Positions 27,165-30,409 of a stretch of 45,371 nt of DNA are shown in pieces (the stretch's first letter is position 1; each line of letters opens with the position of its first letter). The position numbers and the translations under genes are program-made. The notes beneath the pieces are model-generated. The model did no database searches. It was not told the DNA's origin and saw only the letters and a list, made by a program, of their open reading frames with translations. This DNA comes from Rubricoccus marinus (GTDB lineage: Bacteria; Bacteroidota; Rhodothermia; Rhodothermales; Rubricoccaceae): positions 1 through 45,371 of the forward strand of contig NZ_MQWB01000001.1 in NCBI RefSeq assembly GCF_002257665.1, in the 5' to 3' direction.

Positions 27165-29135
27165 CTAGAGCGTGAGGGTGAGGGAGCCGCGGAGGTGCCG
27201 CGGCGGCATGACGTACGTGGGGACGACCTCGTAACGGGCGCCCAGGAGGTTTTCGGCGGCGAGGCCGAGCGCGAGCCGGGACCCCGCGATCTCGCGCCAG
27301 AGGCGCACCTGCCCGCGCACGACGGCGTGGGCCGGGAGCGCGAGCGAGCCGCTGTCGGTCGTGGAGCGGCGGCCAACGGCCTGCACGCCGAGGTCGAGGC
27401 GGAGCGTGGTGCGGCGCAAGAGGCCGCCTCTGGCGAGGCGCGCGACTTCGAGGCCGCCCCAGGCGCTCGCGGTCCAGCGCGGGACGAGCCGGAGCTGCTG
27501 CCCGAACGAGCGGGCGCCAGGCGTGGACCGGTCCCGAGCGTCGGTCAGCGTGCCGACGGCGCCGAGGTCGAGAAGCGCGTCGCGCGAGAACAGCCGCGCC
27601 GTGCGAGCAACGCGGCCGCTGGCCTCCAGGCCGATGGCGCGCGTGCGCGTGAGGTTGACCGGGCTCCATACCCCGCCCGCCAGAGGCCGCCACACGATCT
27701 GATCGCGCGTGCTCGCGGCAAAAACCGTCAGTTCGGCACCGCTCGTGCCAGAGGCCCACGCGAGGCCGAGGTCACCGGAGGCGGACCGCTCCGGGAGGAG
27801 GTCGGGATTGCCGCCGGGGCGCCAGAAGCGGTCGTTGAGCGTCGGCATCCGGAAGGCGGTCCCGGCGCTGGACTTGAGGTGAAAGCCTCTGGCGAGGCGG
27901 AGGTTGGCGCCGAGCCGCGGGCTCAGCGCGGTCTGCGTCTCGCCGCCTGCGGGCACGTGGTGGTCCAGGCGGAGGGCGGGGTAGAGCCGCAGCCGGCCGC
28001 GAGCGGAAGCCGCCGAGAGCGCGAAGCCGAGCCGGTCGTCGGTCGCGCCAGAGGCCAGGCTGGGATGATCGGCGGTGCCTCTGGCGCCAGAGGCCACGGC
28101 GGAAAGCGTCCAGGTGCGGGCATCGAAGTCCGCGCGGAGGTCTCCCGAGGCGACGCGCGTGCGCCCCGTGTCGTCGATGGGCGCCGCGCCTGTGGCCTGC
28201 GCCGTACCCAGGTCGAACGGGCTGGCGTAGCGCAAGAGGCCGCTCTGGAACGCCGCCGACGTGCCGAGCGCCAGAGGCCCGCGGCGCGTGCTCGCGGCGA
28301 CGGCGAGGCGCCCCATCCGGTCCCACTGCCGCGCGCCGACCGAGTCCGTCCCGCCCAGCCCGCGCTCGGCGTCGACTCCCCACGCGGTCACGCTCGCCGC
28401 GCCTCTGGCGCCTTCGAGCGAGAGCCGCGCGACGCCCGCCCGCCTCTGGCGGTCCCAGCCTGCGCGGCGGTCCACGCGGCCGTCCAGGCGCGAGGGGTCC
28501 ACGATGCCGTAGTCGTCGTCGGCGCCCTCGGTCTCGGCGGCGGCCATCGCGCGCCAGCGGCCCACGCGCGTCAGGTGGCTCGCGTGCGCCGTCGCGCCGA
28601 GCGTCCGACGCCCCCACGCGCCTGCGCTCGTCGTCAGCGCCAGAGGCGAGCGCGCCTCGGGCGAGCGCAGGCTGACCACGCCGCCGACGGCGCCGGAGCC
28701 GTACAGGTGCGCGCCGCCGCCGTGGAGCACCTCGGCACCGCCGAGCAGCGCCGTTGGAAGCAGCGAGAGATCGAGCTGGCCGAGTTGCGGGTCCGCCAGC
28801 GGCTGCCCGTCCAGGAGCACGAGCGTTTGCGACGCCGAGGCGCCGCGCACCGTGATCGTCGCGAGGCCCGCCGGGCCGTATCGCCGGACGTGGAGCGGCG
28901 CGCGGGCCTCCAGCCACTCGGCGAGGGTCGTGGCGCCGGCCTCTTGCGCGCTCTCGGCGCTGAGGACGGTGGCGCGCGCCGGGGCCTCTGGCGTCGGCAG
29001 CGGCACGCGTGCGGCGCTGACGCTGATCGCGGCCAGGCTGTCCTCGCGCACTTCCTGCGCCCGGGCAGGGGACAGGGCGCCGGAGGCGGTCACGCCAGAG
29101 GCGAGGAGCAGGAGGAGAGCGGCGAAGCGGTGCAT
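27165..29135 (-). CDS. btuB: BtuB-like TonB-dependent cobalamin receptor
   Basis: A 656-residue outer-membrane receptor. Signal MHRFAALLLLLASGVTASG; TonB-box-like region near ISVSAARVP; plug domain about 40-155 (ATITVRGASASQTLVLLDGQPLADPQLGQLD, AEVLHGGGAHLYGSGAVGGVV); then a beta barrel ending RGSLTLTL. The length is close to E. coli BtuB (614). A cobalamin riboswitch with a terminator touching the start codon lies directly upstream, and the BtuG-like gene follows without a gap. Vitamin B12 uptake is therefore well supported by context. The barrel contains many word-encoded PEA, ASGA and PLA stretches, including one perfect palindrome. Confidence 0.92.
   Translation of the reverse strand: MHRFAALLLLLASGVTASGALSPARAQEVREDSLAAISVSAARVPLPTPEAPARATVLSAESAQEAGATTLAEWLEARAPLHVRRYGPAGLATITVRGASASQTLVLLDGQPLADPQLGQLDLSLLPTALLGGAEVLHGGGAHLYGSGAVGGVVSLRSPEARSPLALTTSAGAWGRRTLGATAHASHLTRVGRWRAMAAAETEGADDDYGIVDPSRLDGRVDRRAGWDRQRRAGVARLSLEGARGAASVTAWGVDAERGLGGTDSVGARQWDRMGRLAVAASTRRGPLALGTSAAFQSGLLRYASPFDLGTAQATGAAPIDDTGRTRVASGDLRADFDARTWTLSAVASGARGTADHPSLASGATDDRLGFALSAASARGRLRLYPALRLDHHVPAGGETQTALSPRLGANLRLARGFHLKSSAGTAFRMPTLNDRFWRPGGNPDLLPERSASGDLGLAWASGTSGAELTVFAASTRDQIVWRPLAGGVWSPVNLTRTRAIGLEASGRVARTARLFSRDALLDLGAVGTLTDARDRSTPGARSFGQQLRLVPRWTASAWGGLEVARLARGGLLRRTTLRLDLGVQAVGRRSTTDSGSLALPAHAVVRGQVRLWREIAGSRLALGLAAENLLGARYEVVPTYVMPPRHLRGSLTLTL
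28077..28094. repeat. Perfect word palindrome inside the receptor barrel
   Basis: GCCTCTGGCGCCAGAGGC encodes ASGARG in the VASGARGTAD stretch, probably a loop. It shows that even the paired form can be accommodated in a coding region. Confidence 0.9.
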
Positions 29136-29136
29136 G

Positions 29137-29172
29137 AAAAAGCCCGCGCCTCAAAAAGAGAAGCACGGGCCA
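29137..29172 (-). terminator. Riboswitch expression-platform terminator at the btuB start
   Basis: On the minus strand, GCCCGUGC and GCGCGGGC pair (one G-U) across a U-rich loop and are followed by UUUUUC and then the AUG of the receptor. It is a classic intrinsic terminator. When cobalamin is bound, this hairpin is expected to form and stop transcription before the gene. Confidence 0.85.
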
Positions 29173-29297
29173 GCACACAGCGCCGCCGGGGCGTCTGCGA
29201 ATGGGGGCCGCGCCTCGGGTCCCGGAGGCGGTGGAGCGAACGTGGCCGTGGGGCCACTCGTCTCGGGCAGGTCTCCTGGCTCGCGGCCCGTCGCGCA

Positions 29298-29315
29298 CGC
29301 CAGAAGCCTCTGGCG
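29298..29315. repeat. Imperfect tail-to-tail word palindrome in the riboswitch
   Basis: CGCCAGAAGCCTCTGGCG, one mismatch from perfect, within a longer GAGCCGCTCG-type hairpin arm between the CAACTGT core and the B12 box. Confidence 0.8.
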
Positions 29316-29427
29316 CGAGCGGCTCGGCTGGCTCGGCGCGCGTCCTTCCCCCTGTCGGAGTGAACGCGCGCGTCGGCACCGGCCGAGCGGGCCGCCTACA
29401 GTTGCGGGGTCAGCGCCGGAATGGACG

Positions 29428-29445
29428 GCCTCTGGCGCCAGAGGC
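29428..29445. repeat. Perfect word palindrome in the riboswitch
   Basis: GCCTCTGGCGCCAGAGGC lies between the GGTG and GCTGACCC core segments, a place normally occupied by a short peripheral stem, and lengthens that stem. Confidence 0.9.
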
Positions 29446-29505
29446 GCAGAGGGCGGTCGTCACCGGCTTCCCTATTGTCCGCGGCGTGCGCGGACCCGAG
29501 GCGGA

Positions 29506-29558
29506 ATGGAAAAGAGCGAGCCGCCAGAGGCGACGGCCCCAAGGTAGGGACGGCTCGC
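29506..29558 (-). terminator. Intrinsic terminator of the upstream secreted-protein gene
   Basis: Minus strand: arms GCGAGCCG (29551-29558 complement) and CGGCTCGC (29516-29523 complement), then CTCTTTTCC. The loop holds one GCCTCTGGCG copy. It separates the gene ending at 29598 from the riboswitch transcript. Confidence 0.6.
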
Positions 29559-29580: not shown

Positions 29581-29598
29581 GCCTCTGGCGCCAGAGGC
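29581..29598. repeat. Perfect word palindrome at a stop codon
   Basis: GCCTCTGGCGCCAGAGGC; its last base is shared with the complement of the TAG stop of the gene at 29598-30320. Confidence 0.9.
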
Positions 29599-30320
29599 TA
29601 CTCGATGCGCGAGACCTCCAGGCCGTCGAAGTAGAACTGCTGGTCTTCGGACGAGAGGTACAGCGTCGTCATGCCGGACCACGGGGCCTCGACGACCGCG
29701 AGAAGGTGGTGCGCGCCGGCCTCGAACGGGTGGAGGCTGTTGAGGCCCGCGCCGCTCAGCTTCAGGGTGCCGCCCCTGCTCCCGCCTCCCACGTCGATCC
29801 GGAAGTCCAGGAGGTAGCGCGTCCGGCTCTCTAGTTCCAGCTCCACCTCCAGGCGCGGCGTGTACCGGTCCGTCTTCGGGGGGAAGAGCGCGTAGTTGCC
29901 GGTGCTGCTGCCGTTGTCGTAGGTCGTGATGCTGGTCTCGACCACGCTCGCCCCGTGGAAGTTGACGCGCCCGAGGTCGCTGTACGGGCGCTGAGCCGTG
30001 AGCTCCAGCTCAGTCAGGACGGCGCGAGGCGAAGGCTCTGAGGCCGTGCCTTCGGTCAGGATGGCGGCCCGCATCGCGTTGTCGAGCCGTGCGGCCGGAG
30101 ACGTCATCCGGTCGGGAGCACCAAGCGGGACCGTTACCCGCCGGAGCGTGGCCCGTGAGACGGCCGGGAGGTTGTTGACCCGCACCTGCGGCGTGATCTG
30201 GACCTGCGGGCGGGACTGGATCTGGACGCGGGGGCGCGTCTGCGGCTTCTGCGCGATGGCCTCTGGCGCGATCACCGCGGCCAGCAGGAAGAGAGAAGCG
30301 AGGGGGCGGAGCATCGGCAT
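29598..30320 (-). CDS. Secreted protein, unknown function
   Basis: A roughly 240-residue protein with a signal peptide (PMLRPLASLFLLAAVIAPEAIA, with APEA encoded by a word copy). A basic, Gln/Val/Pro-rich segment with repeating RPRVQIQSRPQVQITPQV follows. The remainder is a beta-rich region (RVNFHGASVVETSITTYDNG, RLEVELELESRTRYLLDFRIDVGG, MTTLYLSSEDQQFYFDGLEV) resembling a lectin-like jelly-roll fold. I do not recognise a family. The ATG at 30320 was chosen for the best signal peptide; 30314 is equally possible. It ends at a word palindrome followed by an intrinsic terminator. Confidence 0.75.
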   Translation of the reverse strand: MPMLRPLASLFLLAAVIAPEAIAQKPQTRPRVQIQSRPQVQITPQVRVNNLPAVSRATLRRVTVPLGAPDRMTSPAARLDNAMRAAILTEGTASEPSPRAVLTELELTAQRPYSDLGRVNFHGASVVETSITTYDNGSSTGNYALFPPKTDRYTPRLEVELELESRTRYLLDFRIDVGGGSRGGTLKLSGAGLNSLHPFEAGAHHLLAVVEAPWSGMTTLYLSSEDQQFYFDGLEVSRIE

Positions 30321-30409
30321 GGCAACGGGGAGCAGTGGCAGAGCGCGATGGAGAGGGTGAGCCTCCATCTCTACCTACCGGACCCCGCGCCGATGCCCGT
30401 CATGCCCCA

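Follow-up and report, generated by a model that had tools for sequence, protein, structure and literature searches.

A cobalamin riboswitch of Rubricoccus marinus was found to hold, in two of its variable peripheral arms, inverted dimers of a short word that is repeated thousands of times in the genome. The window, i.e. the whole stretch of DNA analysed, comprised 45,371 nucleotides. The riboswitch has an intact conserved core and ancestral arms, the word is lineage-specific, the arms and the leader are longer than in relatives, and the genome's RNase P RNA has a matching pattern; these points could be shown. The best overall explanation, favoured with moderate confidence, is a word like a DNA uptake sequence (DUS), tolerated in the variable arms of an ordinary cobalamin riboswitch.

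The cobalamin riboswitch and its surroundings

The cobalamin (B12) riboswitch aptamer was identified by cmscan as RF00174 at positions 29249-29514 on the minus strand, with a length of 266 nt. The full-length covariance model was matched, with all of model positions 1-189 covered, and the score of 58 bits (E 6.2e-12) compares to a gathering threshold of 31.5. The intact core claimed in the first-pass annotation was hereby confirmed. The span given there, 29235-29490, cut off the 5' end of the aptamer, since the aptamer runs from 29514 to 29249.

Two word dimers are present in the aptamer. Arm A is a variable insert in the hairpin loop after GGGAAGCCGGTG, where the perfect 18-nt dimer GCCTCTGGCGCCAGAGGC (29428-29445) is placed between GGTG and GCTGACCCC. 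Arm B precedes the B12 box and holds a 16-nt tail-to-tail pair, GCCAGAaGCCTCTGGC (29299-29314), which is one mismatch off the standard 16-nt dimer. A perfect palindrome and an imperfect pair had been reported at these two places, both in variable peripheral arms, and all of this was borne out. Another word is found in the leader (29523-29531, minus strand). It is part of a block, about 17-18 nt long, which the alignments place between the aptamer and a promoter-like box, TACCTTGG (29539-29546, minus strand). The box is unchanged across six aligned genomes, and we take it to be similar to the -7 promoter element of Bacteroidota. Another perfect 18-nt dimer (29581-29598) is found further upstream, where it begins at the stop codon that ends the preceding gene (29598-30368, minus strand).

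A conserved hairpin, CCGCCTCCGGGACCCGAGGCGCGG (29208-29231, minus strand; stem sequences CCGCCTCCGGGACC.GAGGCGCGG), is located downstream of the aptamer, ahead of the terminator, and is near-identical in all six aligned genomes. The expression platform is an intrinsic-terminator-like hairpin (29141-29171, minus strand) immediately 5' of the start codon, and relatives have a counterpart of it. The downstream gene (27165-29135, minus strand) encodes a TonB-dependent receptor (Pfam PF00593 and PF07715), with a putative BtuB-like role and cobalamin as its candidate substrate. A search of the receptor against GTDB contigs resulted in distant homologues only, their best segments being 22-44% identical, and none came from a closer strain. 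The receptor gene itself holds a perfect 18-nt word dimer (28077-28094), in-frame within ASGARG and in a gap-free alignment to the family member G004. A tRNA-Ala predicted by ARAGORN inside the receptor gene (28198-28287) was unconfirmed by Rfam and is likely to be spurious. Within its family the riboswitch is ordinary, and it is probably functional. From what is known of the riboswitch class, the conserved hairpin downstream of the aptamer may be a candidate kissing-loop partner of the aptamer. As a separate observation, a 12-nt perfect complement exists between the 5' strand of the aptamer (29492-29503) and the conserved hairpin (29211-29222), and relatives are without a complement of this length.

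The arms and the leader in relatives

The word was absent from the riboswitch in all nine relatives compared. An arm at site A was present in each of the nine and in further members of the order, with lengths of 16-87 nt, some exceeding the arm observed here and usually folding into a hairpin. At site B, an arm was present in most of the nine relatives and in many of the wider set of order members. Because the relatives have arms without the word, the arms are ancestral and their content alone is word-derived. This content is lineage-specific and, judging from the genomes aligned, was gained in this lineage. The proposal that the word had colonised the riboswitch is correct for the content of the arms and incorrect for the arms, which predate the word. 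Ancestral arms not derived from the word had been named as evidence against that proposal; the arms did prove ancestral, site A being occupied in every relative, and their content here proved word-derived.

Compared to the same-genus genome, G001, both arms are extended, arm A to 42 nt from 24 nt (+18 nt) and arm B to 60 nt from 43 nt (+17 nt). Against the family members G007 and G008, both are of ordinary length. The word-bearing leader block of about 17-18 nt after TACCTTGG is missing in four family members (G004, G006, G007 and G008) whose flanking sequences could be aligned, and this block is the clearest insertion-like site. The longer arms and leader suggest insertion or growth in this lineage.

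The word in the genome

The word, GCCTCTGGC/GCCAGAGGC, was found in 172 copies in the window, compared to 1.5 in shuffles, and in 14,385 copies in the 4.43-Mb genome, compared to 195 for the reversed control. This is a density of 3.25 per kb of genome. The two strands are used equally, with 7161 and 7224 copies against 97 and 98 for the control. In 605 kb of the genome a tenth position was found to be fixed, G following GCCTCTGGC in 99% of the copies, which gives the full word CGCCAGAGGC. This word is non-palindromic, as it differs from its own reverse complement. A literature search for the word itself returned unrelated papers only.

Inverted neighbours in the 605-kb sample occurred at exactly two spacings, 131 pairs abutting to form an 18-nt palindrome and another 90 forming a 16-nt palindrome through an overlap of two bases, and inverted pairs at all other spacings were at background. 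Perfect dimers hold about one in five word copies, leaving approximately 81% outside them, and one- and two-mismatch dimers are numerous. The 18-nt dimers in the sample, for which gene calls were crude, were largely intergenic (89/131). They were densest in the first 25 nt past stop codons, at 3.96 per kb, versus 1.17 per kb over the 25 nt at the 5' ends of genes. No T tract was observed downstream of the dimers, and they therefore look unlike classical terminators. The flanks of single words showed no excess of hairpin-extending complementarity over expectation; forming a hairpin is therefore not a general property of the word.

Gain of words and dimers

The word could be a miniature mobile hairpin that spreads when a palindromic unit of 18 or 16 nt is inserted, with the riboswitch arms as insertion sites. 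The two dimer spacings, the +18 and +17 nt of the arms and the leader block with its alignable flanks all agree with such a unit. Coding regions were studied by alignment of proteins to G001, a fragmented draft of 91% completeness; alignments were made at the protein level, as nucleotide alignments with lax gap penalties had exaggerated the gaps at words. An insertion here coincided with 22 of 182 single words and with 9 of 15 dimers (P = 5e-5), the latter a small sample that includes repeat alignments of one gene, and the random rate of such coincidence was 5%. When flanking conservation was matched, the excess at words persisted in most classes. The residues of a PEASGG dimer (gene 560940-563820 in the joined 605-kb sample) are missing in both G001 and G006, and the dimer is therefore polarised as a gain here, again in favour of an inserted unit.

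Other results argue against it. Most single coding copies, 160 of 182 (88%), were aligned without an insertion here, and the large share of words outside perfect dimers and the many mismatched dimers fit poorly with a palindromic unit. Coding dimers were located in poorly conserved segments. Indels near words were also raised in the opposite direction, and since they are raised in both directions, words occupy indel-prone segments. In an unsystematic look, neither target duplication nor a carrier gene was noticed. Spread as a mobile hairpin is hence considered unlikely.

In the first-pass annotation it was suggested that the word arrives as pre-formed hairpins. As a rule this failed, given the words outside perfect dimers, the single words without hairpin-extending flanks and those without an insertion, and such arrival fits a minority of words at most. 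The observation behind the suggestion is real, and its interpretation is half right. Our reading of the alignments is that the majority of words come about, or are selected, with length unchanged, and that dimers are more often tied to a gain in length.

Words of the relatives

Among 39 relatives, the highest copy number of the word is 136, in the same-genus genome, G001. Sampled stretches of the relatives were searched for enriched words. CCGCCAGC was enriched in G001 (1187 vs 85 expected) and in G007 (148 vs 11.7), and CCGCCTCGG was enriched in G004 and G006 (61-63 vs 6-7). No clear enriched word of their own was found in the smaller samples of G002, G003, G005 and G009, and the sample of G008 was too small to judge. 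From these sequences, the words of the family relatives look like dialects. Arm B of the riboswitch in G007 was observed to carry the word of G007 itself (L032:3932).

Iterated sites can also be seen in the cyanobacterial HIP words, which reach 1000-2000 per Mb and have given way to different words in certain related genomes (PMC4390886). The word could correspondingly be a HIP-like site resulting from biased mutation or repair associated with a DNA methyltransferase, and its core, GCC-AGA-GGC, is almost symmetric. HIP sites are however palindromes, which neither this word nor the enriched words of G001 and G004 are, and an origin of this kind is quite improbable.

Words in functional RNAs

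The RNase P RNA of the same genome (L220:1501-1890) holds three words, all of them peripheral. It measures 390 nt compared to 351 nt in G001 (L219), a difference of 39 nt. The RNase P RNA repeats the riboswitch pattern of words confined to peripheral elements. The tmRNA and four tRNAs of the genome contain zero words, and the search of the assembly yielded no 16S rRNA.

The number of words in the aptamer, three, is close to the 2.2 expected from the intergenic density (P = 0.38). The notable feature is where they are placed, namely in variable arms only. The confinement of two dimers to the arms, a small sample from one aptamer, could be due to chance at roughly the 5% level by our own estimate. 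Self-complementary inserts had been proposed to extend the helices of the arms. This agrees with the predicted fold of arm B, a word-with-word stem of 9 bp with a 4-nt loop. It does not agree with that of arm A, in which pairing between the two words of the dimer is predicted to be absent (summed pair probability 0.0004) and the partner of the second word is an imperfect word immediately upstream. A recruitment of the word for tuning of the riboswitch, for example by arm stabilisation, would be consistent with arms A and B being more stable than shuffles when folded in context, but it is very improbable, as hairpins at the same sites in relatives are without the word, the number of words equals the intergenic expectation and the palindrome of arm A is predicted not to pair with itself.

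Proposed mechanism and significance

That the word is tolerated in the riboswitch arms is very probable. That it is also a sequence for DNA uptake is about evenly balanced. The riboswitch would most likely repress the TonB-dependent receptor gene by transcription termination in response to its ligand. Two peripheral arms, free in length and sequence across the order, have been filled and lengthened by CGCCAGAGGC in this species only, presumably as a neutral change without any action of the word on the riboswitch. The genome-wide accumulation would most likely be due to preferential uptake and recombination of word-bearing DNA, and selection would purge the word from the RNA core and spare the arms. 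ComEC is present, as are PilT-family and secretin homologues that are below curated cut-offs, but competence genes occur so widely that their presence is not discriminating.

More tentatively, and with somewhat less than even confidence, a lineage that does not belong to the classically competent families may have uptake-sequence dialects of its own, at a density exceeding the top value of the DUS survey (PMC3630211), which rewrite the variable arms of the riboswitch and the RNase P RNA within one genus and whose inverted dimers are gained as units of 16-18 nt. Uptake-sequence-like dialects are also indicated in a family for which the literature searched holds no such report. Within one genus, this riboswitch and the RNase P RNA can each be compared with and without the iterated word. 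Two questions thus become open to testing: at which places a functional RNA accepts extra sequence, and whether words of the uptake type spread through substitution or through the insertion of dimers. The lasting interest is in the combination of a lineage-specific, uptake-sequence-like word with a clean comparison of functional RNAs.

Comparison with known systems

The riboswitch resembles other members of RF00174 in its core, its B12 box, its place ahead of a TonB-dependent receptor gene and its terminator-type platform. It differs in that the variable arms hold a species-specific iterated word. Repeats in such functional RNAs have precedents. Rickettsia palindromic elements (RPE) are fused into tmRNA and RNase P RNA, and are similarly tolerated within both functional RNAs and reading frames; they are however 105-146 bp long with terminal inverted repeats, whereas the unit here is 9-18 nt and mostly single (PMC2229807). 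In pneumococcus, a BOX element is located between two T-box riboswitches, and an interspersed repeat is thus part of a riboswitch leader that is still seemingly functional, but BOX is far longer and lies between riboswitches and not within an aptamer (PMC3049150). HIP1 and the alternate HIPs of cyanobacteria share the extreme copy number and the replacement by other words in related genomes, and differ in being palindromes tied to methyltransferases (PMC4390886).

The nearest published parallel is the DUS of Neisseriaceae, with thousands of short non-palindromic copies, dialects by which related species carry different words, and inverted pairs near gene ends that are associated with terminators (PMC3630211). 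The 14,385 copies in 4.43 Mb exceed the top DUS density of that survey, 5918 copies in 2.4 Mb (PMC3630211), although the word counted here is shorter. Compared to DUS, the word belongs to another bacterial group and its dimers are not followed by a T tract.
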